DNA of 64,000 nt from Gemmatimonas phototrophica (GTDB lineage Bacteria; Gemmatimonadota; Gemmatimonadetes; Gemmatimonadales; Gemmatimonadaceae), in NCBI RefSeq assembly GCF_000695095.2, contig NZ_CP011454.1, forward strand, positions 3,286,001-3,350,000. Reading direction: 5' to 3'. The stretch's first letter is position 1, and the number at the start of each line of letters is the position of its first letter. The translations under genes and the position numbers were made by a program. Positions 1 through 13,540 of this stretch are shown one piece after another. Below the pieces are notes generated by a model, which saw nothing but the letters and a program-made list of their open reading frames with translations, had not been told where the DNA came from and searched no databases.

Positions 1-803
1 GGGGCGACACCAACGGTCACATCGGCCACCTGCCCCAGCGTAACCGGCGTGCCCCCGCGCACCGCCACCACGGTACTGGCAATATCCGCGACCGATTGCA
101 CGCGCCCAATTCCGCGAATCACGTATTCCTGTCCGCGATCCATGTACACGCCACCCGATGCGTTGGCATTTGAGCCACGCGCCGCGCGTACCACCTGCTC
201 GAGCGACACACCGGCCCGCATCATGCGCGCCGGATCAGCCAACACCTGATACTGTTTCACCGCGCCGCCAATGGGAATGACCTGCGCCACCCCCGGCACT
301 GCCAGCAGGCGACGGCGTATGGTCCAATCGGCTACCGTACGCAGCTCCGTTGGCGACTGGCTGCCGGTAAGGCCAATCATGAGGATTTCCCCCATCACGC
401 TGGACACCGGCGCCAGCACCGGCGCGGAAATGCCCGCAGGTAGGGCCGCCGCGACGGTCTGCAGCTTCTCGGCCACGATCTGACGGGCGCGGAAGATGTC
501 CGTGCCCCAATCGAACTCCACCCACACCACCGAAATGCCTTGCGCGGTGGACGACCTCACGCGTCGCACACCGGTCGCTCCATTTACCGAGGTCTCGATG
601 GGGAAGGACACGAGCGCCTCCACCTCCTCCGGTGCCATCCCATGGGCTTCGGTGAGCACCGTAACGGTGGGCGCCGTGAGGTCGGGAAAGACGTCCACGG
701 GCATCTGCCATGCCGTCCATGCACCAGCAACGAGCATCACGCCCGAGACGGCCAACACGATGACGCGGTTGGCCAGCGCCCAGGCAATCAGGCGATTCAA
801 CAT
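1..803 (-). CDS. Heavy-metal RND efflux pump, inner-membrane subunit (CusA/CzcA family), 3' part missing
   Basis: Translating the minus strand from the ATG at 803 gives an uninterrupted 267-codon N-terminus that runs off the window. It begins MLNRLIAWALANRVIVLAVS, the first transmembrane helix of HME-type RND pumps, followed by the family-typical segments MPVDVFPDL, EEVEALVSFPIE, GISVVWVEFDWGTDI and PAGISAPVLAPVSSVMGEI. The family uses the proton motive force to export metal cations through a CusC-type outer-membrane channel. It is the last visible gene of a minus-strand operon, starting 10 bp after the adaptor's stop codon. The helix-4 residues that separate Cu/Ag, Zn/Co/Cd and Ni pumps lie outside the window, so the substrate stays open; the copper neighbours to the right make Cu plausible. 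Confidence 0.93.
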   Translation of the reverse strand, partial: MLNRLIAWALANRVIVLAVSGVMLVAGAWTAWQMPVDVFPDLTAPTVTVLTEAHGMAPEEVEALVSFPIETSVNGATGVRRVRSSTAQGISVVWVEFDWGTDIFRARQIVAEKLQTVAAALPAGISAPVLAPVSSVMGEILMIGLTGSQSPTELRTVADWTIRRRLLAVPGVAQVIPIGGAVKQYQVLADPARMMRAGVSLEQVVRAARGSNANASGGVYMDRGQEYVIRGIGRVQSVADIASTVVAVRGGTPVTLGQVADVTVGVA

Positions 804-813
804 GCGAGGCGCC

Positions 814-2310
814 TCAATGTTCGTGACCGTGCGCTGGCACGGCCGTAGACAGCGACGCCAGTCGCACCTGATACGCCGCTCCCGTCACCACGCGCTCTCC
901 GGCGAGAATACCGCTGCGCACCGACACGCGCTCTCCTTGACGCGCACCAAGGTCGAGCACCCGTCTCTCGAAGCTTTCTCCTTCGGTCTGCACATACGCG
1001 ATGGATCGGCCGTCTTCGTCGAGTACCGCCGAGGCAGGTATGACGACACCGGCCTCTCGTTGTCCCGTCTGCACAAACACGCGCGCAGCAGCGCCAATCT
1101 TGAGGGAGGCATCTGCATTGGCCACTTCCAGCAGCAGCGGCACGGAGCGAGAGACGGAATCGATGACACTGCCGAGTGATACCATTCGGCGGGCCTGGTA
1201 GATACGGTCCGACCCCTCCACACGGAACTCCATACCCGATGTACGCGATACGTTTGCTGCCTGCGCCGCCGGAACGTTCACACGCAGCCACACCACCGAC
1301 GGATCGATCACGGTAAACAACAATGCTCCTGCGTCGACGCGACTACCGGGCATGATGCGACGGTCAGCGATAACGCCGGTCAACGGCGAACGCACCGCGA
1401 CCCGACCGCCCTCTGTGAGTGCTCCCCCACTGTATCCCGCCAGCGCCTCGCGCGCCGCAGCCAGACGAATCTCGGCTTCGTGTACCCGTCGCTGCGGTAC
1501 GGCTTCCACCGCGAGCAGACGAGTGGCGCGCGCATACTCGTCTTCCGCCTCACGCAACCGGGCGCGGGCCTCTGCGTAGGCCGCGCTCCCCGCATCGCCG
1601 ATCGAGGGGGACAACAGCGCAAGCGTTTGTCCACGCGACACGCGGCTGCCTGGCGCCGGCGCGTTGACGACACCGGCTGCATCGATCAGCCCGGCAATGG
1701 GCGCACTCACCTGCGCAAAGCGACCGGCGGCCGCCTCGATCATACCGGGCGCCTCGAAGCTCCCTGCCAGTTCTCCCGCAGTGGCAAATGCCGAACGAAA
1801 GCCCGGCGTTTTCCACGCCTGTTCTTTCAGGAACGCGATCCCGCTCTCCGCACCGCCCGAATCTCGCGGCGCCGCAGCGGCGTTCGCGTACACCGTGAGC
1901 CCGGGAACGAACAGGCTGTCGCGTGCCTGCGGGCTCTCCACGCGAATGACGAGATCGTAGACCCCTGCCTGCGTGAACGTGGGGCTCGGGCCATAGATGC
2001 CGGGGGCACGTGGAGCCTCCTGCACCACCACCAGCGGCGCGCCACCGCCGCGCGGCGTGAAGGTCAGCGTGATGCGTCCCGAACGAAGCGGTGTGAAATC
2101 CGTGAGATCGGTGAGATGCACCGCAAACTTGTCGGGCGCGCCCACGATCAGCGCCGGATGCTCCATGAACAGTTCGGTGCTGTCGGTCCACTGGGTAATG
2201 GCGCCACCGGCCGGTTCATCTGCCGCGCCCTCGGTAGCCTCTGGTGTCGATGTTCCACAGGCAGTAGTGCCGAAGAGCGCCAGGAAATAGAGAAAAGAGC
2301 GGCCGGTCAT
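814..2310 (-). CDS. Periplasmic adaptor (membrane-fusion) lipoprotein of RND metal efflux, CusB/CzcB family
   Basis: 498 aa. The N-terminus has a short hydrophobic segment ending in TTAC at Cys18, a weak lipobox, so the adaptor is probably lipid-anchored. Residues about 45-150 form an extra beta-rich domain resembling YtkA/FixH modules (TFTPRGGGAPLVVV, GIYGPSPTFTQAGVYDLVI). The adaptor body follows: barrel-sandwich halves (APIAGLIDAAGVVNAPAPG, VAVRSPLTGVIADRRIMPG), an alpha hairpin (EARARLREAEDEYARATRL) and C-terminal beta domains. It ends in PAHGHEH, a small His cluster that could hand metal to the pump. Its ATG overlaps the stop of the upstream channel gene by 4 bp, so the two are translationally coupled. 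Confidence 0.92.
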   Translation of the reverse strand: MTGRSFLYFLALFGTTACGTSTPEATEGAADEPAGGAITQWTDSTELFMEHPALIVGAPDKFAVHLTDLTDFTPLRSGRITLTFTPRGGGAPLVVVQEAPRAPGIYGPSPTFTQAGVYDLVIRVESPQARDSLFVPGLTVYANAAAAPRDSGGAESGIAFLKEQAWKTPGFRSAFATAGELAGSFEAPGMIEAAAGRFAQVSAPIAGLIDAAGVVNAPAPGSRVSRGQTLALLSPSIGDAGSAAYAEARARLREAEDEYARATRLLAVEAVPQRRVHEAEIRLAAAREALAGYSGGALTEGGRVAVRSPLTGVIADRRIMPGSRVDAGALLFTVIDPSVVWLRVNVPAAQAANVSRTSGMEFRVEGSDRIYQARRMVSLGSVIDSVSRSVPLLLEVANADASLKIGAAARVFVQTGQREAGVVIPASAVLDEDGRSIAYVQTEGESFERRVLDLGARQGERVSVRSGILAGERVVTGAAYQVRLASLSTAVPAHGHEH

Positions 2311-3692
2311 CGGATTGACTCGAGAGTGGAGAAGAGAGGCACGCCTGCCGCGCGAGCGAGTGCCACGCGTCGCTGCGCGATATTTGTCGTGAGGGTCAGC
2401 AGAGTAAGCTCGGTTTCCTGCCAGGCACGCACGGCCTCAAGCCATTCGGCTAGCGTGATTTCGCCTTCCGCATACGCCGCCTGCACCGCCCGGAGCGCGA
2501 GGCGCGACTCGGCACCTGCAAAGGGCTGCAACAGTGCGTACTCTGCTTGTGCGCCACGCAGGGCAGTGAACGCCTCCGTCACCTCACGCGTCACGCGACG
2601 TCGTACAAGATCGGCCTCAGCGCCAGTCTGGCGCGCCGTTGCATCGGCCGCAGCAACAGCGCCCACGCGTCGGTCGAACAGCGGCAGCGGCAGCGAAAAT
2701 CCCGCGACAAAGCCGTACAGCGAAACGCCGCTGCTCGCTCCACTTTGTACACGCTCACCCTTGTAACCCGCGGACAGCGCTGGCATGGGCACACGTTCGC
2801 GCGCAGCGAGCCGTGCATCAGCCAGCGCCGCTTGGACCTCGCGCCCTGCACCAATAACGTCGGCTCTCGCCGCGAGGGCCCGCCCCACCAGCGAGTCGCT
2901 CGTTTCGGCCAACGTCGAGGACGGCAACGCCAGGTTGTTGAGCATAGTAGCGAGCAAGGAGGTAAAGGCTGTGCTCGCAGTGTCACCTGGTGCAACCGTG
3001 GGGACGGCAATACGGTCGGCCGATACCCCGGTGAGCAACGCCAGCTGCTCACGAGCAGCACGTGCCTGCATGGCGGCCTCTGCACGGCGGGCGGCATACC
3101 GCCCCACCTCCAGTCGCAGACGTCGATCCACGTAGGCTGCCACATCACCTGCGCGCACCCGCTCATTCCCCACGCGCTGGGCCTCGCGGGCCGTTCGTAA
3201 GGCGGCATCGGCAAGGTGTATCCGATGTTCCGCACTCATTGCCTCGATGTAGACGCGAACCAACTCCGCGTCGATCGCTTGCGTACTGCCGGCAAGGCGG
3301 GCTTCCGCTACCTCCACGCGCAGTCGCGCAGCTACGATACGCGCCGAACGCTGCCCGGCGACGTCCAACGGCCACTCGATCTGGGCAATGTCCTGTGCAT
3401 TGGACTGACCAACACGTGACGTTTGTTCACGCCCATACGCCAGGCTGGGATTGGGAAACGCCGCCGACTGTCGTTCGCGGGCGGCGGCCACGACCACCGC
3501 TTCCTTCGCCGAGCGAACTGCGGGATCGAGACGAAGCGCCGCCGTGCGCGCGTCGCGCAATGACAGCAGTTCCGCGCGCTCTGTGACGGCGGTACGATCC
3601 TGCGCCGGCAGTTGCCGCGCGCTGAGACTCAAGAGGAGAAGCGCCGCGGCGCAAACCGGTTGGCTCCAGAGAAACGAGACCACGAGTACCAT
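2307..3692 (-). CDS. TolC-type outer-membrane channel of the RND system (CusC/CzcC family)
   Basis: 461 aa with a signal peptide of about 30 residues (hydrophobic LLLLSLSARQLPAQ). The rest shows the repeated long helices of outer-membrane efflux proteins: an Ala/Arg/Glu-rich pattern, LRLDPAVRSAKEAVVVA near the start, the loop FSLPLPLFDRR in the second half, and EGEITLAEWLEAVRAWQETE near the C-terminus. The family forms a trimeric channel that works with the CusB- and CusA-type subunits. It is the first of three tightly coupled cusCBA-like genes; a 136-bp gap without an obvious terminator separates it from the His-rich gene upstream, so both may share one transcript. Confidence 0.9.
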   Translation of the reverse strand: MVLVVSFLWSQPVCAAALLLLSLSARQLPAQDRTAVTERAELLSLRDARTAALRLDPAVRSAKEAVVVAAARERQSAAFPNPSLAYGREQTSRVGQSNAQDIAQIEWPLDVAGQRSARIVAARLRVEVAEARLAGSTQAIDAELVRVYIEAMSAEHRIHLADAALRTAREAQRVGNERVRAGDVAAYVDRRLRLEVGRYAARRAEAAMQARAAREQLALLTGVSADRIAVPTVAPGDTASTAFTSLLATMLNNLALPSSTLAETSDSLVGRALAARADVIGAGREVQAALADARLAARERVPMPALSAGYKGERVQSGASSGVSLYGFVAGFSLPLPLFDRRVGAVAAADATARQTGAEADLVRRRVTREVTEAFTALRGAQAEYALLQPFAGAESRLALRAVQAAYAEGEITLAEWLEAVRAWQETELTLLTLTTNIAQRRVALARAAGVPLFSTLESIR

Positions 3693-3828: not shown

Positions 3829-4266
3829 TCAGCAGGTGGGTGGAGCTCGAAGAGCGGGCGGAGGACCGGTGTTTGGCGCGGGGCGTGCAAGCGACACGAT
3901 GTCCCATCGCGACAGCGCGGGACGTTCATGCGTGGCGATCGCTTTATCGACAGCGGCTGCGCCAACCAAGACCGGCGCCTCGAGCGCACTCCGGATATCT
4001 GGCTTGCCGGTGGCAATGGACACGACGCGGGCGTGCCCGTGCGCATGTCCGTGATCCTGCTCGCTCAGCGTTGCGCCGTCGTAGTCGTTGTCGGCGTTGC
4101 TGGAATGGTCACCATGATGCTCATGGTGATGCTCGGCGCGATGCCCGTGATGTTCCGCGCCGTGCGCGTGCGCTACGCCGTGCGCCACGGCGAGGCCGGG
4201 CGACGCGAAGCCAGCCACAAAGGCAAGCACGATAAGGGTCCAGCGGGACCAGGCGGAGCGGGCCAT
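3829..4266 (-). CDS. Small exported histidine-rich protein, probably metal-binding
   Basis: 145 aa from ATG 4266; a longer frame opens upstream to 4338, but the internal ATG starts directly with a signal peptide (MARSAWSRWTLIVLAFVAGF, then SPGLAVAHG). The mature protein has a dense His tract at about residues 28-75 with HAHGAEHHGHRAEHHHEHHGD and HGHAHGHAR, then an ordinary segment ending in NTGPPPALRAPPTC. Small His-rich exported proteins of the CzcI/DUF2946 kind often sit at the head of RND efflux operons, and this one lies just upstream of the channel gene. A periplasmic metal buffer or donor is inferred; no catalytic motif is seen. Confidence 0.75.
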   Translation of the reverse strand: MARSAWSRWTLIVLAFVAGFASPGLAVAHGVAHAHGAEHHGHRAEHHHEHHGDHSSNADNDYDGATLSEQDHGHAHGHARVVSIATGKPDIRSALEAPVLVGAAAVDKAIATHERPALSRWDIVSLARPAPNTGPPPALRAPPTC

Positions 4267-5392: not shown

Positions 5393-5469
5393 TCGGATTA
5401 ATCTGGAGCACGATCACGCCGTTCCACTTTGCTGCCGTGGTAAGGGGGAACCGTTGGGCGCACCATCCT

Positions 5470-5484
5470 TTTATCTTCAGTAAA
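5470..5484. promoter_or_regulatory. Copper-type operator copy 1 (TTTAT-N5-GTAAA)
   Basis: Reads TTTAT CTTCA GTAAA, one mismatch from the palindrome TTTAC-N5-GTAAA found three more times in this window, always before copper genes. It lies 26 bp before the first gene of the operon that encodes the BlaI-type repressor, so autoregulation is expected. Confidence 0.6.
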
Positions 5485-5510
5485 GCGTTCGACACCAGGC
5501 CGTCCCCCTC

Positions 5511-6893
5511 ATGCCTTCCGTGCACCTTTTTCGACCTTCCTGCCGTCGCCTGCGTCGGCCCCTGCCCCGTGCGGTACTCGCGGCAGCGCTGGCTCCGGTC
5601 TTCGGCGCTTGCGCCCATGGCTCGCTACAGCGCGATGTTTCCGCCGTTGACGACCTGCTGCGCGAGCGCGCCGGTGTTGTGGTTCCCAGTCGTTCCGAGT
5701 TCGGAGCCGCCATTGGCGCGGACACCGTGGCGAAGCTGCTGGCCGCGCCCCTCACCCCCGAAACGGCGGTGCGCATCGCCCTGATCTCCCACCCCGCCCT
5801 GCGGGCGACGTACGCCGAGCTTGGTCTCGCGCGCGCCGACGTGGTGCAGGCGGCGCTCGTTGCCAACCCGGTGGTAACACTGGAGCGATTTACCGCGGGG
5901 CGGTTTCAGGAGTTCGGCATCGCCCAATCGTTTATCGATCTGCTGTCACTGCCGATGCGACGTCGTGTCGCCGAGGCGCAGTTGACCGGTGCCAGATTAC
6001 GTGTGGCCGATCAAGTATTCCAGCAGGTGGTCGAGGTGAGACACAGTTTGGTGGAGGCGGTTGCGGCAGCGCAGATCCGCGAGATCCGTGATCGGGCGCA
6101 GGCGGCGGCAGCAGCGTCGGCGACCGCCGCCACAGCCATCCACGCCGCCGGCAACCTCAAGGATCTCGATCTCGTCAACGAACGCGCGGCCGCGTCGGAG
6201 TTCCAGGCCGGCGCCATCGAGGCCCGCGGCGAAAGTCAGTCGAGCCGGGAGCGCCTCGTGCGCGCGCTCGGCGTTTCAACAACCGGGGCGGCCCTCGTAC
6301 TGCCGGAGCGGCTCCCTGACCTTCCAGCGAACGATCCCACCGAAGATACGCTCGTGGCGCTGGCGGCTCGCAGCCGACTGGATCTCGCGGCGGCGCTTCA
6401 GGATGTGAATGCGGCCGGCAAGGCGTTGGGGCTCACGAATCGCTTCCGGTTGCTCCCCGATGGTACACTCTCCTTCGCCGGAGAGGGAGAAGACGGCGGT
6501 CCATTCGAGAGTGGCCCGGGCTTCTCAATTCCGCTGCCGTTCTTCGACCGTGGGCAGGCCCGAATGCTGCGCGCACAGAGCGCACTGCGCGCCGCCACCG
6601 CCAGGCACGAGGCGCTGACCTTGTCGATGCGTGCCGATGTGCGTGCGGCGCACGCGCTGCTGACGGCGGCGCGCGAGCGATTCGATGAGTATCGGTCACG
6701 CGTGGTACCGTTGCGGCGACGTGTCACCGAAGAGGCGCAATTGCAGTACAACGCCATGGCCGTGAGCGTTTTTGGTCTGCTGCAGGCCAGACAGGGGGAA
6801 CTGAACGCCGGACAAGGGTATATCGAGGCGCTCAGTGACTATTGGAAGGCACGTATCCAGTTGGAGCGTGCCGTGGGGACCAGCCTGCCATGA
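5511..6893 (+). CDS. TolC-like outer-membrane efflux lipoprotein of the copper operon
   Basis: 460 aa. The N-terminus LAAALAPVFGAC gives a lipobox-like Cys34. The body is alpha-helical with two outer-membrane-efflux repeats: RIALISHPALRATYAELGLARAD and the matching second-half loop GPGFSIPLPFFDRGQARML, plus ARQGELNAGQGYIEALSDYW at the end. It resembles CusC/CopB-type channels associated with multicopper oxidases. No adaptor or pump gene lies in this operon, so it may serve another pump or act in oxidase/copper traffic. Its stop overlaps the oxidase start by 4 bp (ATGA). Distinct from the channel at 2307-3692. Confidence 0.86.
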   Translation: MPSVHLFRPSCRRLRRPLPRAVLAAALAPVFGACAHGSLQRDVSAVDDLLRERAGVVVPSRSEFGAAIGADTVAKLLAAPLTPETAVRIALISHPALRATYAELGLARADVVQAALVANPVVTLERFTAGRFQEFGIAQSFIDLLSLPMRRRVAEAQLTGARLRVADQVFQQVVEVRHSLVEAVAAAQIREIRDRAQAAAAASATAATAIHAAGNLKDLDLVNERAAASEFQAGAIEARGESQSSRERLVRALGVSTTGAALVLPERLPDLPANDPTEDTLVALAARSRLDLAAALQDVNAAGKALGLTNRFRLLPDGTLSFAGEGEDGGPFESGPGFSIPLPFFDRGQARMLRAQSALRAATARHEALTLSMRADVRAAHALLTAARERFDEYRSRVVPLRRRVTEEAQLQYNAMAVSVFGLLQARQGELNAGQGYIEALSDYWKARIQLERAVGTSLP

Positions 6894-8275
6894 GTGACAT
6901 GTCAAAGATGGACCGTCGCCGATTGCTGACATCGAGCCTCGGGGCAGTCGCGGGTGGTGCCCTGTTCGGGCTACCCGCCACGGCCTCTGCGGCCACCCGC
7001 ACGACCGTCTCCCATGATGACGGGACGATCTTCGCGCCCGGACGCCCAGGACGCGACTACACGCCGGTCATCACCCCCAACGGGTCTACCTTGCCGTTCA
7101 AGATCGTGGACGGCGTGAAGGTCTTTCACCTGATCGCGGCGCCGGTCGAGCACGAGTTCGCTCCCGGGCTCCAGGCGCAGTGCTGGGGCTTCAACGGCAG
7201 TACCCCCGGTCCCACCATCGAGGCCGTCGAGGGGGACCGCGTGCGCATCTACGTGACCAACGCGCTCCCGGCCGCGACCAGTGTACACTGGCACGGCATC
7301 ATCCTGCCGTCTGGTATGGACGGTGTGTCAGGGCTCAGCCAGGCACCAATTCCGCCGCAGAGCACGTTCCGATACGAGTTCACGTTGCGCCAGCACGGTA
7401 CGTACATGTATCACTCGCACCGTGACGAGATGACGCAGCAGGCACTCGGCATGATGGGGATGTTCATCATCCACCCTCGAGTCGCTCCCACGCGCCGCCC
7501 GGACCGGGATTTTGTGCTCCTGTCGGGCGAGTGGAAGGTCCTCCCGGGCGCCCGTCGTCCCGACCCGAACGAGATGCTCGAGTTCAACGTGCTGACGTTC
7601 AACGGCAAGGCGTATCCCGGAACGGCGCCGCTGATGGTTGAGCGCAATGAGTTCGTACGCATCCGTCTGGGCAATTTGAGCGCCATGAGCCACCACTCCA
7701 TCCACATTCACGGTCACACGTGGACACTGGTGGCGACTGACGGAGGAGATATTCCGCAGTCCGCCCGCTGGCCGGAGGTAACCCAGCTGGTGCCGGTCGG
7801 CAGCACGCGCACCATGGAGTTCGTGGCTGACAATCCCGGTGACTGGTCGCTGCATTGCCACATGTCGCATCACACCATGACGCAGATGGGACACAACGGC
7901 ATCAGCATGCTCGGCGCCGACGCGGAGATGATCGACAAGGCCGTGCAGCCGGTTATCCCGTCGTACATGACCATGGGACACGACGGCATGGGGGATATGG
8001 CCGAGATGGGGATGCCGGTGCCGAAGAACAGCACGCCCATGATGGGCGCCCCCGGTCCCCATGGCTATATCGATATGGGTGGCATGTTCACGGTGATGAA
8101 GGTGCGCGAACGTGTGCGTCCGGGCGACGAGACATCGTGGTGGCAGGCGCCGGAAGGGACGCAGGCGCGCGAAGCCACGCCGCAGGAACTGCAGCGCGAC
8201 CGCATAACGCTGCCGGAGTTCAAGGCAAAGCCGGCGGGACACGCGCATCATCATCCACCCGGAGACGAGTCGTGA
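6890..8275 (+). CDS. Tat-exported multicopper oxidase (copper-detoxification type)
   Basis: 461 aa starting at ATG 6890, which overlaps the upstream stop. A Tat-type signal (MDRRRLLTSSLGAVAGGALF) is followed by cupredoxin domains with all copper ligands: HWHG (H133, H135), HSH (H174, H176), HSIHIHGH (H268, H271, H273) and HCHMSHH (H321, C322, H323, H327) with the axial Met332. After the type 1 site comes a Met-rich segment (GHDGMGDMAEMGMPVP and more Met), as in copper-resistance oxidases where such Mets bind Cu(I). Two-domain-like length is shorter than CueO (about 500 aa). It probably oxidises periplasmic Cu(I) to Cu(II). Second gene of the four-gene copper operon. Confidence 0.93.
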   Translation: MSDMSKMDRRRLLTSSLGAVAGGALFGLPATASAATRTTVSHDDGTIFAPGRPGRDYTPVITPNGSTLPFKIVDGVKVFHLIAAPVEHEFAPGLQAQCWGFNGSTPGPTIEAVEGDRVRIYVTNALPAATSVHWHGIILPSGMDGVSGLSQAPIPPQSTFRYEFTLRQHGTYMYHSHRDEMTQQALGMMGMFIIHPRVAPTRRPDRDFVLLSGEWKVLPGARRPDPNEMLEFNVLTFNGKAYPGTAPLMVERNEFVRIRLGNLSAMSHHSIHIHGHTWTLVATDGGDIPQSARWPEVTQLVPVGSTRTMEFVADNPGDWSLHCHMSHHTMTQMGHNGISMLGADAEMIDKAVQPVIPSYMTMGHDGMGDMAEMGMPVPKNSTPMMGAPGPHGYIDMGGMFTVMKVRERVRPGDETSWWQAPEGTQAREATPQELQRDRITLPEFKAKPAGHAHHHPPGDES

Positions 8276-8718
8276 GCGCGCGCAAAGCTCCGCTCCCGAA
8301 GATGGGTGATGCGGTGCGACTTTCCGCTGAGGGAGTGGCGAAGGTGCTCGGTGATCTCGAGGCCAGGCTGCTCACCGTTGTCTGGCAGCTGGATATGCCG
8401 GCGACGGCGCGCACCGTGCACGAGATGATCATCGACGAGCACGAGGTCGCGCTGCTCACGGTGGTCACTGTGTTGAACAAGCTCGTGGAGAAGCGCATCC
8501 TCACGCGCCGGAAAATTGGCGGGTTGCTGCACTATGCCGCCGCCATTTCGGCCGCCGATTTCCATGATGTCGCATCCCGGCGAATGGTGGAAGGCGTCAT
8601 CGACTTTGCACCCGAGCGACTCGCCGCGTGCTTTGTGGACGTGCTGGCGGAGCGCGACCCAGCGCAACTGGATCATCTCGCGGCCCTTGTCGAAGAGGCG
8701 CGCCGCCGTCGTGGTTGA
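8272..8718 (+). CDS. BlaI/MecI/CopY-family winged-helix repressor
   Basis: 148 aa starting at GTG 8272, which overlaps the oxidase stop (GTGA) and follows a GGAGACGAG ribosome site. The core matches BlaI-type winged helices: LEARLLTVVWQLDMPATARTVHEMI, then the recognition-helix region ALLTVVTVLNKLVEKRILTRRKIGGLLHY. The C-terminal helices (about 100-145) would dimerise. BlaI proteins repress beta-lactamase genes and are inactivated by a BlaR1 protease; CopY relatives repress copper ATPases. Here the protease partner is encoded next and the genes around are all copper genes, so it most likely controls the TTTAC-N5-GTAAA sites at 5470, 9767, 12911 and 12999. No CopY Cys hook (CxCx4CxC) is seen. 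Confidence 0.9.
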   Translation: MSARKAPLPKMGDAVRLSAEGVAKVLGDLEARLLTVVWQLDMPATARTVHEMIIDEHEVALLTVVTVLNKLVEKRILTRRKIGGLLHYAAAISAADFHDVASRRMVEGVIDFAPERLAACFVDVLAERDPAQLDHLAALVEEARRRRG

Positions 8719-9763
8719 TCAACGACGGCCGTGGCTTCGGGCAGGTACCGTGGTGGGGGAGCGTCGGTATCAACGGCTCCTGATCATCGGTCTGGCGAGC
8801 ATCCTCGTGCTGTCGCTCGTGCCGGTCATCGGCACGCACCTGCTCGGCGCGGCGGAACGACCGCTGTCGGGGAGCGATCACATCGGCGCCCTCTGTCTCA
8901 TTGCGCTGCATGAGCTCCTGTCGCCGGCGCACCATCTGCTGCATGTGCTGGTGGCGGCAGGTTTCGTGTGGGCGATTGGGGAGACCGCGAAGAAGGCACT
9001 CCACACGCGGCGTGTCCTCGCGGGACTCCCGGTACGCCGCCTTGCGCACGCAGAAATCGCGCTCGCCACGCGGAGTGGGCTCGATGCGCATGAGGTGCTG
9101 GTGATCGCCGGACTCCCCATTCCGGCATTCACGGCTGGGCCGTGGCTGCGCCCCCGCGTCTATGTGGCCGAAGCGCTCATGGTGGGCGAGGATTCGCTGT
9201 CCACCGAAGAGGTGGTTGCCGTTCTCGCGCACGAAGCCGCGCACGTTCGCCGACGCGATCCGATGCGTTTCCTTGCGCTCCGCCTGATGGCTCGTGCGCT
9301 TTTCTGGGTCCCTGCCCTTCGCGCTATCGCGGAGGACATCGCCGATGAAGCGGAGATCATCGCGGACGACGCGGCGAGCGCGGTGACGGGCCCACTCACG
9401 GTGGCGAGCGCCCTAGTGAAACTCGGGGGGTGGAAGGTGCCGGAGTCGTCCCTCACGGTCGTCGCATTCCTCCGCCGTGACCTGCTCGACCGGCGTGTGC
9501 GGCGGCTCGTGGGCGAGGAATACCGCCCTCAGGGACGGCTGAGCGGGGCATCGGTGGTCGTGGCGGCCCTGGCGCTCACCGTGAGTACATTGTCCGGCGT
9601 GGTCGATGTGCACGATCTGCCCAACGCGCCGGGACATCCATCATCGCATCAGCATTGCGAGCACGATGGCATGTTCGCCGCGGGGCATTTGTTCTGTCGG
9701 TGGGGAGTGGCGGGGCCACTTGTCCCCGACGGTGTTGCCGATTGTCCACACGCACGCAGCTGA
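8711..9763 (+). CDS. BlaR1-type M56 membrane metalloprotease with a His/Cys-rich periplasmic tail
   Basis: About 350 aa if started at GTG 8711 (8-bp overlap with the repressor gene); GTG 8750 is also possible. TM segments at about 23-45, 58-90 and 280-298 surround a zinc protease domain with HEAAH (174-178) and a downstream Glu in DEAEIIADD (213). Classical BlaR1 ends in a large penicillin-binding sensor; here that is replaced by a 50-residue tail rich in His and Cys (H301, H309, H313, H315, C316, H318, H326, C329, C345, H347). This looks like a metal sensor. Inferred role: sense periplasmic copper and cleave the BlaI-type repressor. Confidence 0.88.
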   Translation: MVDQRRPWLRAGTVVGERRYQRLLIIGLASILVLSLVPVIGTHLLGAAERPLSGSDHIGALCLIALHELLSPAHHLLHVLVAAGFVWAIGETAKKALHTRRVLAGLPVRRLAHAEIALATRSGLDAHEVLVIAGLPIPAFTAGPWLRPRVYVAEALMVGEDSLSTEEVVAVLAHEAAHVRRRDPMRFLALRLMARALFWVPALRAIAEDIADEAEIIADDAASAVTGPLTVASALVKLGGWKVPESSLTVVAFLRRDLLDRRVRRLVGEEYRPQGRLSGASVVVAALALTVSTLSGVVDVHDLPNAPGHPSSHQHCEHDGMFAAGHLFCRWGVAGPLVPDGVADCPHARS

Positions 9764-9766
9764 CGC

Positions 9767-9781
9767 TTTACTGGGCATAAA
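9767..9781. promoter_or_regulatory. Copper-type operator copy 2 (TTTAC-N5-ATAAA)
   Basis: Reads TTTAC TGGGC ATAAA, one mismatch from the shared palindrome. It sits 3 bp after the protease stop codon and 56 bp before copC, so copC and the following NTF2-like gene probably have their own regulated promoter. Confidence 0.6.
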
Positions 9782-9836
9782 ACTAGGGATAGGTTCAGGG
9801 AGTCGTCGTCACTTCCTTCCTGCCAATTTCCACGCC

Positions 9837-10211
9837 ATGTCCCTCCGTCGCGCATTCACGCGGTCACTGTTGCTTGTCGCCGCCCTCCCTGTCCTGGCGA
9901 CAGCAACCGTCCTTCCGCACGCGAAATTGAAAAGTTCACTGCCCGCTGCTGGCAGCACGGTGAGCGCCCCCAAAGAACTTCGTCTCACGTTCTCGGAAAA
10001 GGTCGAGCTCAAAATTGCCAAGGTGACGTTGCTCCGCGGCACAGAAGAGATGGCCGCCTTGGGTGACGTGTCGGCCGACGCGCAGACCCCAGAGACGGTG
10101 CTGGTCCCGGTAACCAAGCCGTTAGTCGCGGGATCGTACACGGTGAAGTACCGTGTGGCCGGTCCAGACGGTCACCCGATGGGCGGCTCGTTTGTGTTCA
10201 GCGTGAAATAA
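9837..10211 (+). CDS. copC: CopC-family periplasmic copper-binding protein
   Basis: 124 aa from ATG 9837, followed by a signal peptide (SLLLVAALPVLATATVLPHA). The mature part is a CopC/YobA beta barrel: HAKLKSSLPAAGSTVSAPKELRLTFSEKVE at the start and GPDGHPMGGSFVFSV at the end. The N-terminal His28 and the Asp111/His113 pair of the DGHP motif are the Cu(II) ligands of the family; no Met-rich Cu(I) site is seen, so it is the Cu(II)-only type. The frame opens further upstream inside the protease gene, but only this ATG gives a signal peptide. One base separates it from the next gene. Confidence 0.92.
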   Translation: MSLRRAFTRSLLLVAALPVLATATVLPHAKLKSSLPAAGSTVSAPKELRLTFSEKVELKIAKVTLLRGTEEMAALGDVSADAQTPETVLVPVTKPLVAGSYTVKYRVAGPDGHPMGGSFVFSVK

Positions 10212-10212
10212 G

Positions 10213-10722
10213 ATGACGATGCGCCTTGCAACGCTCATGTTGGGAGCTGTGGCCTTCGGTTCGATGACGGTGTCATCCAGCGCTTCTGCACAATCGGCCA
10301 ATCGTTCCATTCAGCAGGCCACCGCTGTTATTCGTGCGGTGTTTGCAGCGGCCGAACGCGCCGACCTGGCCGCGCTCGATACGTTGTACGCCGGTGACAG
10401 CCTCACGGTGTTTGAGAGTGCCGGTATCAATCGGGGGTGGAAGGACTACCGCGACCATCATCTCGGGCCTGAACTGAAAGAGATGACCGGTTTCAAGTAC
10501 CGTCCCATCGACATCACCACGCGAGTGGAGGGAAACCTCGCCTGGGCCACGGTGAGTTATGCGCTGCAGGCCAAAGAAGGCACCCGGACCATCGATAACT
10601 TTGGACGCGGAACCTACGTGCTGGAACGAGCGGGCAGCGGCGACAAGGCGCGGTGGGTTGTGCGGCATTCGCACACGGCCTCTCGTGCCCGGCGGCCCAA
10701 TGACCCGCCCATGCCGCAGTAG
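10213..10722 (+). CDS. Exported NTF2/SnoaL-like (DUF4440-type) protein
   Basis: 169 aa with a signal peptide (LMLGAVAFGSMTVSSSASAQ). The mature part is a cone-shaped NTF2-like fold: an N-terminal helix (IQQATAVIRAVFAAAERADLAALDTLYAGDSL), the SAGINRGWKDYRDHHLGPELKEM segment and terminal strands (LAWATVSYALQAKEG, RWVVRHSHTASR). The conserved HH in DHHL recurs in the paralogue at 13058-13540. Its job in copper handling is unknown; it follows copC by one base, and its partner is divergent from the copper ATPase, so a role in the copper response is inferred from context only. Confidence 0.75.
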   Translation: MTMRLATLMLGAVAFGSMTVSSSASAQSANRSIQQATAVIRAVFAAAERADLAALDTLYAGDSLTVFESAGINRGWKDYRDHHLGPELKEMTGFKYRPIDITTRVEGNLAWATVSYALQAKEGTRTIDNFGRGTYVLERAGSGDKARWVVRHSHTASRARRPNDPPMPQ

Positions 10723-10765: not shown

Positions 10766-12850
10766 CTACAGCCGCACGCGACGGAGCAGTTGCGCGTTGA
10801 GCGCCACAATAATGGTGCTGAACGACATGAGCACCGCACCAATCGCTGGTGTGAGCACGATGCCCCATGGCGCGAGGACGCCGGCGGCTAGCGGAATGGC
10901 CACGATATTGTAGCCGGCCGCCCACCAGAGGTTCTGCACCATTTTCCGATAGGTCGCGCGCGACAGGCTGACGATGCGCGGCACATCGCGGGGATCGCTG
11001 CGCACGAGCACTACGTCACCCGCCTCAACGGCGACATCGGTCCCTGCGCCAATGGCGATGCCCACGTCGGCCGAAACGAGCGCCGGTGCATCATTCACTC
11101 CGTCTCCCACCATCGCCACGCGCTTCCCCTGCTTCTGCAGCCGTTCGATGTTTGCTGCTTTCTGCTCGGGAAGGACCTGAGCCAGCACCGTGTCAATGCC
11201 GAGCTCACGCGCAACCGCGTCGGCAACGGTCTGTGCATCGCCGGTCATCATGACGACCTCGATACCGGCCGCGTGCAATTGCTTCACCGCCTCGGCAGAT
11301 TCCGGTCGCACCGCATCGGCCACGGCGAACGCCGCGATAGTGCGTCCCGACTCCACTAGATAGATGACGCCTTGTCCGGCGGCCATCACGGTCTCCGTAT
11401 ACGTCTGCAACTCTGCAGTCGGCGAAATCCCGAGGCTGGCCAGTAGATTGGGCCCGCCCCCCTCGAGCTGTCGGCCGTTGACCACCGCGCGCACGCCGCG
11501 ACCTGGTATGGACTCAAAATTCGTGGCCGCGGGCACTTCGAGTTTGCGCTCAGCGGCGCTCGTGACAATGGCACGTGCCACCGGGTGTTCGGCATCGCGT
11601 TCCACGGCCGCAGCAAGGCGCAGCGCCTCGTCCTCGCCAAGGCCCACCGCCGTTTTCATTGAGACCACGCGATGCTGACCGAGTGTCAACGTACCGGTCT
11701 TGTCGAACACCACGGTCGTGAGGTTCCGCGCCTCCTCCAATCCACGACGATCTCGTACCAGTAGCCCGCTCTGCGCGCCAAGCGTGGTCGAGATGGCGAG
11801 GACCAGCGGCACCGCCAGTCCAAGCGCGTGCGGGCAGCTGATCACCAGCACGGTTACCAGTCGCTCGACCGCTGTAGCCATCGTTGCACCGCTCGCCAAC
11901 CATGCCACGAACGTCACGGCGCCTGCGCCAATGGCAATCCACGTCAGCCAGAACGCCGCGCGGTCGGCAAGCATCTGCGCGCCCGAACGCGACGCTTGTG
12001 CTTGGGCAACCAGCCGCATGATCCCCGCAAGTGCGGTGTGGTCACCCGTCCCTGTGACCTCCACCCGCAGCGATCCCGCCCCATTTATCGCACCAGCAAT
12101 GACCGTGGCGCCCTCCGCCTTCTCGACCGGCGCAGACTCTCCGGTGATTAGCGCTTCGTTCACCGCGCTCCTGCCAGCCCTCACAACTCCATCTGCCGGC
12201 ACATTGGCGCCCGGGCGCACCAGCACGATGTCGCCATCGTGAAGCGCGGCCACCGGCACCTCCTCCAGCCGCTCATCGGTGCCCGCTCCGTGCACGCGCG
12301 TCGCTGAAGATGGAAGCAGTTTTGCCAGTTCGCCGAGTGCGCCCTGCGCCTGCGAGACCGAGCGCATTTCGAGCCAGTGTCCCAGCAGCATGATGGTCAC
12401 CAGACTCGCCAGCTCTTCCCACAGCGGCATGGCGGGGAAGCCGAGCACGACGGCCGCGCTGAACGCGAAGGCCACGCTGATAGCGAGCGCGATCAGCGTC
12501 ATCATCGCTGGGACGCGGTCCGCGATCTCTTGCCGTGCTCCTCGCAAGAAGGGCCAGCCGCCGTACGCGAAGACGGCCGTGCCAAATATCGCCGGGATCC
12601 ATCTGGCGCCGGGAAAAACCGGCGCGGTATAACCCAGCGCGTTCTGGAGCATGTGCCCCCAGACCAGTGTCGGCAGCGTCAGCGCCAGCGAGAGCCAGAA
12701 CTTGTTCTTGAACATGTCGACCGAGTGGCCGGCATGCTTGTCATGCGCGCCGTGGTCGGTGCCAGCCATACCGCCTGCGGCATGCGACGAGTGCGACACC
12801 GTCTGCGTGTCTGCCGACTGATGGTGATGAGCCGTGTGAGCATCCGTCAT
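10766..12850 (-). CDS. CopB-type copper-translocating P1B ATPase (CPH motif)
   Basis: 694 aa from ATG 12850; the frame runs open further upstream but only this start gives the typical His-rich cytosolic N-terminus ([25 protein letters not shown]) followed by TM1 at about 51. Motifs: TGES (236-239), CPH in [12 protein letters not shown] (339-341), phosphorylation site DKTGT (D383), AEHPVARAI and [13 protein letters not shown] instead of CPC defines the P1B-3 (CopB) group, which exports copper to the periplasm. No CxxC HMA domain is present, as usual for CopB. Divergent from the gene at 13058, with two copper-type operators in the shared intergenic region. Confidence 0.94.
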
Positions 12851-12910: not shown

Positions 12911-12931
12911 GGCTTTACGCTGAGTAAAGCC
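12911..12931. promoter_or_regulatory. Copper-type operator copy 3 (perfect palindrome)
   Basis: Perfect 8-bp arms GGCTTTAC and GTAAAGCC around a 5-bp centre (GCTGA), the best copy of the TTTAC-N5-GTAAA motif. It lies 61 bp upstream of the CopB ATPase start. Confidence 0.7.
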
Positions 12932-12998
12932 GGGCCCGCCAGCCCGTACGGGCACCTGCTCCCACTCCGCGCTGCCGATAGCCCAGTTGCCATGCCGC

Positions 12999-13013
12999 TT
13001 TACGGACCGTAAA
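12999..13013. promoter_or_regulatory. Copper-type operator copy 4 (perfect core)
   Basis: TTTAC GGACC GTAAA, 45 bp before the NTF2-like gene at 13058 and 68 bp from copy 3. Two sites in one divergent intergenic region suggest separate control of both directions. Confidence 0.7.
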
Positions 13014-13057
13014 GTCCACGGCGTGACGCGTCTCTCATATTCTTCTGCCCGCCAACC

Positions 13058-13540
13058 ATGCCCTTCCGCCTGACTCGCCCATCCTGCCTGATTGCACTGG
13101 CGCTCTGCTTCGGCGGACTCGCGCCGCGCGTTCGCGCTCAGGCCACGCCAGCTTCGCCGAGTGACTCCGCGGCCGCGGCCGCGACGGTCGAACGATTTCA
13201 CCAGGCGCTGTCGGCACACGACTCCGTGACCGCCGTGTCGTTGCTGGCATACGACGCGCTCATTTTGGAGAGCGGCGTGATTGAATCGCGGGCGGATTAT
13301 GTGGGCCACCATCTGGCCGCCGATATGAAAGCCGGTCAGGGGGCGAAGCGCACCAAGACGGTGCTGCGCGTTACCGTGATTGGCGAGGTCGCCTACGTGG
13401 TCACGAAAACGGCGACGCCGGCCACCAATGCGGACGGCTCGAATGGCTCAGACATGGCCGAACTCATGCTGCTGTCGAAGTCGGGAACAGGGTGGACCAT
13501 CCGCGCCGTGCACTGGTCCTCGCGGCGGCGCCGAGCATGA
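13058..13540 (+). CDS. Exported NTF2/SnoaL-like protein, paralogue of 10213-10722
   Basis: 160 aa with a signal peptide (CLIALALCFGGLAPRVRAQ). Core helix VERFHQALSAHDSVTAVSLLAYDALILESG, the motif ESRADYVGHHLAADMK matching the GWKDYRDHHLGPELK segment of the paralogue, then strands ending in GWTIRAVHWSSRRRRA. Divergent from the CopB ATPase and preceded by a perfect copper-type operator. Function unknown; exported NTF2-like folds bind small hydrophobic ligands in other contexts, but no ligand can be read from the sequence. Confidence 0.75.
   Translation: MPFRLTRPSCLIALALCFGGLAPRVRAQATPASPSDSAAAAATVERFHQALSAHDSVTAVSLLAYDALILESGVIESRADYVGHHLAADMKAGQGAKRTKTVLRVTVIGEVAYVVTKTATPATNADGSNGSDMAELMLLSKSGTGWTIRAVHWSSRRRRA

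Follow-up and report, generated by a model that had tools for sequence, protein, structure and literature searches.

A candidate copper-linked BlaI/BlaR1-type proteolytic switch with conserved His/Cys ligand sets in Gemmatimonas phototrophica

Within a 64,000-nt stretch of the Gemmatimonas phototrophica genome (NZ_CP011454.1, assembly GCF_000695095.2, forward strand positions 3,286,001-3,350,000; hereafter "the window"), the gene for a BlaI-type repressor adjoins that for a BlaR1-like membrane protease in the midst of copper genes, and this pair very probably switches on copper-defence genes in Gemmatimonas-type bacteria. Conservation, genomic neighbourhood and candidate operators strongly support a copper-linked BlaI/BlaR1-type switch with a ligand-bearing, predicted outward-facing protease tail, for which we infer copper as the ligand, the membrane topology, protease activation and repressor cleavage. 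At the level of sequence, the proposal is founded on the pair itself, the conservation of its ligands, its neighbours, its operator sites and a repressor free of a CopY-type metal site; metal binding, activation and cleavage are drawn by analogy from BlaR1 and PetP. We consider a BlaR1-style proteolytic switch, linked to copper and serving its detoxification, to be the likely explanation.

A repressor-protease pair within a copper locus

As the sequence-only reading had proposed, the pair lies inside a multicopper oxidase operon, directly behind the genes for an outer-membrane factor and the oxidase and ahead of copC (Table 1). The blaI start overlaps the 3' end of the oxidase gene, and the blaI and protease reading frames share 8 nt. 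The repressor belongs to the BlaI/MecI/CopY family (PF03965 score 63.7 bits, cut-off 22.6). Three further features on the opposite strand adjoin these genes: a CbiX-like protein with an apparent signal peptide (PF01903; 4376-5302), divergent from the operon, a secreted chelatase-fold protein being an odd component of a copper locus; a small protein, encoded between the cusC-like and cbiX-like genes (3829-4266), that matches no family and contains a stretch very rich in His; and genes for heavy-metal efflux of the RND type (cusC-, cusB- and cusA-like; 1-3692), before which no operator-like site was seen. A search of the G. phototrophica genome for CueR gave no match, and a single CsoR/RcnR-family gene was found, distant from the locus; other copper regulators are neither proven nor excluded.

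Table 1. Features of the copper locus, in window coordinates (OEP, outer-membrane efflux protein; MCO, multicopper oxidase)
Feature	Position	Strand	Remarks
Predicted operator, 2 mismatches	5469..5485	+	between divergent cbiX-like gene and OEP-MCO-blaI-protease operon
OEP gene, first in operon	5511..6893	+	PF02321 E=1e-25
CopA-like MCO gene	6890..8275	+	PF07732 E=1.6e-40; TIGR01480 E=2.7e-50 (below cut-off)
BlaI/MecI/CopY-family repressor gene	8272..8718	+	148 aa, GTG start; PF03965 E=2.5e-17
M48/M56-type membrane gluzincin protease gene	8711..9763	+	350 aa, GTG start; PF01435 E=4e-8; PF05569 E=8e-6
Second ligand set, residues 43-78	8837..8944	+	in and next to predicted TM1-TM2 extracytoplasmic segment
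Catalytic HEAAH (H174, E175, H178)	9230..9244	+	kept in 39/39 orthologues
E215 (ExxAD), presumed third zinc ligand	9353..9355	+	39/39 orthologues; aligns to E-V-E-A-D of BlaR1 8exp
His/Cys tail after last predicted TM	9605..9760	+	H301, H315-C316-x-H318, H326-L-F-C329, C345-P-H347
Predicted operator, 2 mismatches	9766..9782	+	before copC; copC sites in many other loci
copC	9837..10211	+	NF033814, 103.9 bits (cut-off 95)
Secreted SnoaL/DUF4440-like protein gene	10213..10722	+	PF13474 E=3.4e-9; recurs beside pair in relatives
Copper-type P1B ATPase gene	10766..12850	-	TIGR01511 and TIGR01525 above cut-off; start set at a Met
Predicted operator, exact	12913..12929	+	between P1B ATPase and SnoaL-like genes
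Predicted operator, exact	12998..13014	+	same ATPase/SnoaL-like intergenic region as 12913 site
Second SnoaL/DUF4440-like gene	13058..13540	+	PF14534 E=2.9e-6; divergent from ATPase, behind two exact operators

The association of this pair with copper genes extends well beyond the window. In each of 34 relatives' loci for which 12 kb or more of sequence was available, blaI adjoined the protease gene, the gene pairing seen in BlaR1-type and PetR-PetP systems, and it did so even where no oxidase was found nearby. Within about 10 kb of the protease, CopC was encoded in 27 of these loci, a multicopper oxidase in 23 and a copper-type ATPase in 21. At least one of the three was present in 31 of the 34, versus none of 20 control M56 loci from the same phylum (Fisher p=5.5e-12, a value that serves only as a guide because these loci lack phylogenetic independence). 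Searching plasmids with the two proteins gave no matches, and nothing was found in IMG/VR.

The two SnoaL/DUF4440-like proteins look secreted and recur beside the copper pair with up to 93% identity in relatives, where their genes also have the pair's operators upstream.

Two conserved His/Cys sets flank a BlaR1-like catalytic site

The protease had been described from the letters alone as an M56 enzyme with an intact HEAAH motif and downstream Glu. Both catalytic elements were found as described, and H174, E175, H178 and E215, the HExxH-plus-Glu signature of BlaR1-type gluzincins, are invariant among 39 orthologues, whereas the family label holds only in part: the protein passes the Pfam cut-off for M48 (PF01435, 33.7 against 20.3) but falls short of that for M56 (PF05569, 25.7 against 31), and its sequence thus places it between M48/HtpX and M56/BlaR1. 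Consistent with this placement, a profile of 34 orthologues matched, over parts of the catalytic region, the solved structures of HtpX (3cqb, 3e-7) and BlaR1 (8exp/8exs, 1.4e-3). A Pfam search detected no transpeptidase or penicillin-binding domain in the protease, in agreement with the earlier reading, and only about 52 residues follow the last predicted transmembrane segment.

This tail (residues 299-350) has exactly the seven His (301, 309, 313, 315, 318, 326, 347) and three Cys (316, 329, 345) previously counted between H301 and H347, and most are strongly conserved. Conservation was assessed on 39 distinct full-length Gemmatimonadota proteins with a mean pairwise identity of 48%, taken from orthologues drawn from 395 Gemmatimonadota genomes and a scan of GTDB contigs. 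A seven-ligand pattern, HCxH...HLxC...CPH, is kept in 36-39 of the 39 (H315 in 37, C316 in 39, H318 in 36, H326 in 38, C329 in 37, C345 in 37 and H347 in 38), so that the tail, whose lack of conservation would have spoken against a sensor role, proved conserved. Identity to the window protein averages 79% at the His/Cys positions of the tail versus 26% at its other 42 positions. The tail is degenerate in three orthologues (L057, L065 and L075), and the motif is absent from 19 control M56-type proteins of the same phylum, some of which have Cys-free His-rich tails.

A second set, overlooked in the sequence-only reading, is also conserved: H43, H57, C62 and H74 are present in all 39 orthologues, H78 in 38 and H67 in 35. 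Between the two sets, in residues 81-298, the only conserved His or Cys residues are the two catalytic His. Both sets are predicted to lie on the outer side of the membrane, based on hydropathy and the positive-inside distribution of Lys/Arg charges (five in residues 1-21 and six in 92-110, as opposed to few in residues 43-60 or the tail). An AlphaFold model of the protease built from five input sequences was poor (mean pLDDT 51.7; 30-54 in the tail).

In one relative (genome G180, locus L046, ~7992-9033), the protease orthologue is interrupted: it matches in two pieces and has an in-frame TAG, owing either to an error in sequencing or to a broken gene.

A candidate operator palindrome

Operators had been guessed before copC and related genes, a suggestion borne out by four sites resembling the palindrome CTTTAC-N5-GTAAAG, which was first spotted by inspecting the promoters of the window (Table 1). 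A perfect match is found only twice in the complete 4.7-Mb genome, each time in the ATPase/SnoaL-like intergenic region. Within the window alone, the nine sites with up to three mismatches do not exceed chance expectation (5.4); there, the operator signal is carried by the best-matching sites and by where they stand, not by the total count. The site at 5469, found in the same place in three relatives (L036, L043 and L078), may serve both directions, since the cbiX-like gene is divergent from the operon. The palindrome resembles BlaI-type sites in its TTAC/GTAA half-sites.

The 590 kb of relatives' neighbourhoods contain 12 exact sites and 33 with at most one mismatch at spacing 5, compared to means of 0.01 and 0.21 for scrambled palindromes. 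At the remaining spacings between 0 and 10, the same half-sites yielded none, either exact or with at most one mismatch, and the palindrome was not found in 380 kb of control loci. Sites are located shortly upstream of blaI, copC, MCO/OEP and SnoaL genes in many genera; several relatives' loci have no operator within one mismatch. Across the family, in a scan of 395 genomes, exact sites were found in 14 of 43 genomes with the protease (E<=1e-40) versus 1 of 97 without it, a split counted by hand from two tables. This co-occurrence, together with the sites before the repressor's own gene, suggests that the repressor binds CTTTAC-N5-GTAAAG. The CopY/BlaI box TACA-N-TGTA was also considered and rejected: within the window it matches loosely at three places (24098, 26202 and 36875), none near the genes of the copper pair.

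Sites identical to CTTTAC-N5-GTAAAG, many sharing the core CTTTACATnATGTAAAG, were also seen in loci L132-L142 (family f5, genus g70), with none of these copper genes nor this pair within 1.5 kb; they probably represent the operator of another regulator.

Proposed mechanism, competing explanations and known systems

Without excess copper, the repressor would occupy CTTTAC-N5-GTAAAG sites before its own operon (OEP, MCO, blaI and protease) as well as operators before copC, the P1B-ATPase gene and the SnoaL-like genes. Copper outside the cytoplasmic membrane would be bound by the His/Cys residues of the tail (HCxH, HLxC, CPH), probably joined by H43, H57, C62, H74 and H78 of the TM1-TM2 segment, and binding would activate the HEAAH metalloprotease on the cytoplasmic side. 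The active protease would then cleave the repressor or trigger its loss, derepressing the regulon, the switch itself included. Of the copper-sensing proteolytic switch originally suggested, the copper link thus stands on conservation, neighbourhood and operators, and copper binding and cleavage are steps that we infer.

Were copper sensed by the repressor itself in the manner of CopY, the protease would be either a passenger or an enzyme that exerts quality control on the secreted oxidase. The repressor does sit in the family that contains CopY, and its match to the CopY model is weak (TIGR02698, 30.7 against a cut-off of 122), but the CopY-type Cys-x-Cys metal motif is present in none of 38 repressor orthologues, most of which have no Cys at all, and the protease gene keeps company with blaI where no oxidase is near. 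Direct copper sensing by the repressor is thus unlikely and was rejected for want of this motif, and we hold the corresponding passenger scenario to be very doubtful. With such a repressor the signal should enter elsewhere, and the protease, given two conserved and predicted outward-facing ligand sets, would be the natural sensor.

A closer competitor accepts that the pair controls copper genes by proteolysis and assigns the Cys/His set a structural role (zinc or disulfides), the signal being thiol oxidation, another metal (Ag, Zn) or an accessory copper protein. The His/Cys ligands could indeed hold Zn or form disulfides instead: three conserved Cys outside the membrane are available for the latter, and conservation alone does not name a metal. 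Against this, the ligand-type His are as strongly conserved as the Cys, and the neighbourhood is specifically of copper type (CopC, CopA-like oxidase, copper-type ATPase); we consider this competitor improbable. A standard beta-lactam sensor pair lying by chance among copper genes would fit the BlaI-family membership of the repressor and the weak resemblance of the protease profile to BlaR1, yet the absence of a penicillin-binding domain, for which we rejected this function, the short tail and the copper genes found in nearly all relatives' loci render it extremely improbable.

The preferred reading, a copper-linked proteolytic switch, has a published counterpart. The BlaI-family regulator PetR of Synechocystis sp. 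PCC 6803 is removed by the BlaR1-family protease PetP in the presence of copper (Garcia-Canas et al. 2021, as described in PMC7896320, PMC13421787, PMC10141476 and PMC12292863). The targets of PetRP number only four proteins, connected with the exchange between plastocyanin and cytochrome c6 (PMC7896320, PMC10141476), and the pair is described as not driving a copper-homeostasis response (PMC7896320; 2023 review, PMC10141476). Copper input to a BlaR1-type system, initially put forward as new, is thus not wholly so. Among the literature matches for BlaI/M56/BlaR1 with copper, only commentary and reviews on PetRP and papers on CopY were relevant, and the 2023 review regards what BlaR homologues do in heterotrophic marine bacteria as an open question (PMC10141476). 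In both systems a BlaR1-type membrane protease is encoded next to a BlaI-type regulator, and copper-dependent proteolytic loss of the regulator, as with PetR, is predicted here by analogy. They differ in their regulons: PetRP is tied to electron-carrier exchange, whereas the neighbours of the Gemmatimonas pair are copper-detoxification genes and its regulon is predicted to serve copper detoxification.

Other known systems share individual components. BlaR1-BlaI and MecR1-MecI of staphylococci likewise combine a repressor with a membrane gluzincin protease whose HExxH and Glu can be aligned (8exp), but the profile match is weak and the Gemmatimonas protease carries its His/Cys tail in place of a penicillin-binding sensor. 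CopY/CopR of Gram-positive bacteria have the repressor superfamily and the kind of target genes in common with this locus; they differ in the C-x-C site, absent here, and in the operator, CTTTAC-N5-GTAAAG as opposed to the CopY consensus RNYKACANNYGTMRNY (PMC7253601). HtpX and other M48 proteases provide the best structural match of the catalytic region (3cqb) and a Pfam score above cut-off, whereas the Gemmatimonas protease has a repressor partner gene, conserved outer ligands and a copper neighbourhood.

What appears new is therefore a lineage separate from PetRP that combines two conserved sets of ligands with a regulon predicted to serve copper detoxification. We lean towards a hitherto undescribed class of copper sensor, in which a BlaR1/HtpX-like protease would read periplasmic copper directly through a two-part site (the HCxH-HLxC-CPH tail and the TM1-TM2 His/Cys set) and, throughout Gemmatimonadota and independently of PetP, control detoxification by proteolysing the repressor irreversibly. 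Such a switch would extend the one published copper BlaI/BlaR1-type system that we found, PetRP, from cyanobacterial electron-carrier exchange to a regulon predicted to serve copper defence in a second phylum. It also provides a specific candidate for the metal site, conserved among orthologues, together with a candidate operator, neither of which is given for PetP in the reviews cited here (PMC7896320, PMC13421787, PMC10141476, PMC12292863). Both lend themselves to gel-shift assays and point mutations, and they are relevant to the way in which new sensor inputs arise in BlaR1-type proteases.

Other BlaI/M56 pairs, at loci L098, L099 and L101-L105 (families f5/f7), have C-terminal tails that are His-rich and Cys-free, with none of these copper genes near; these pairs may respond to a different metal or signal.
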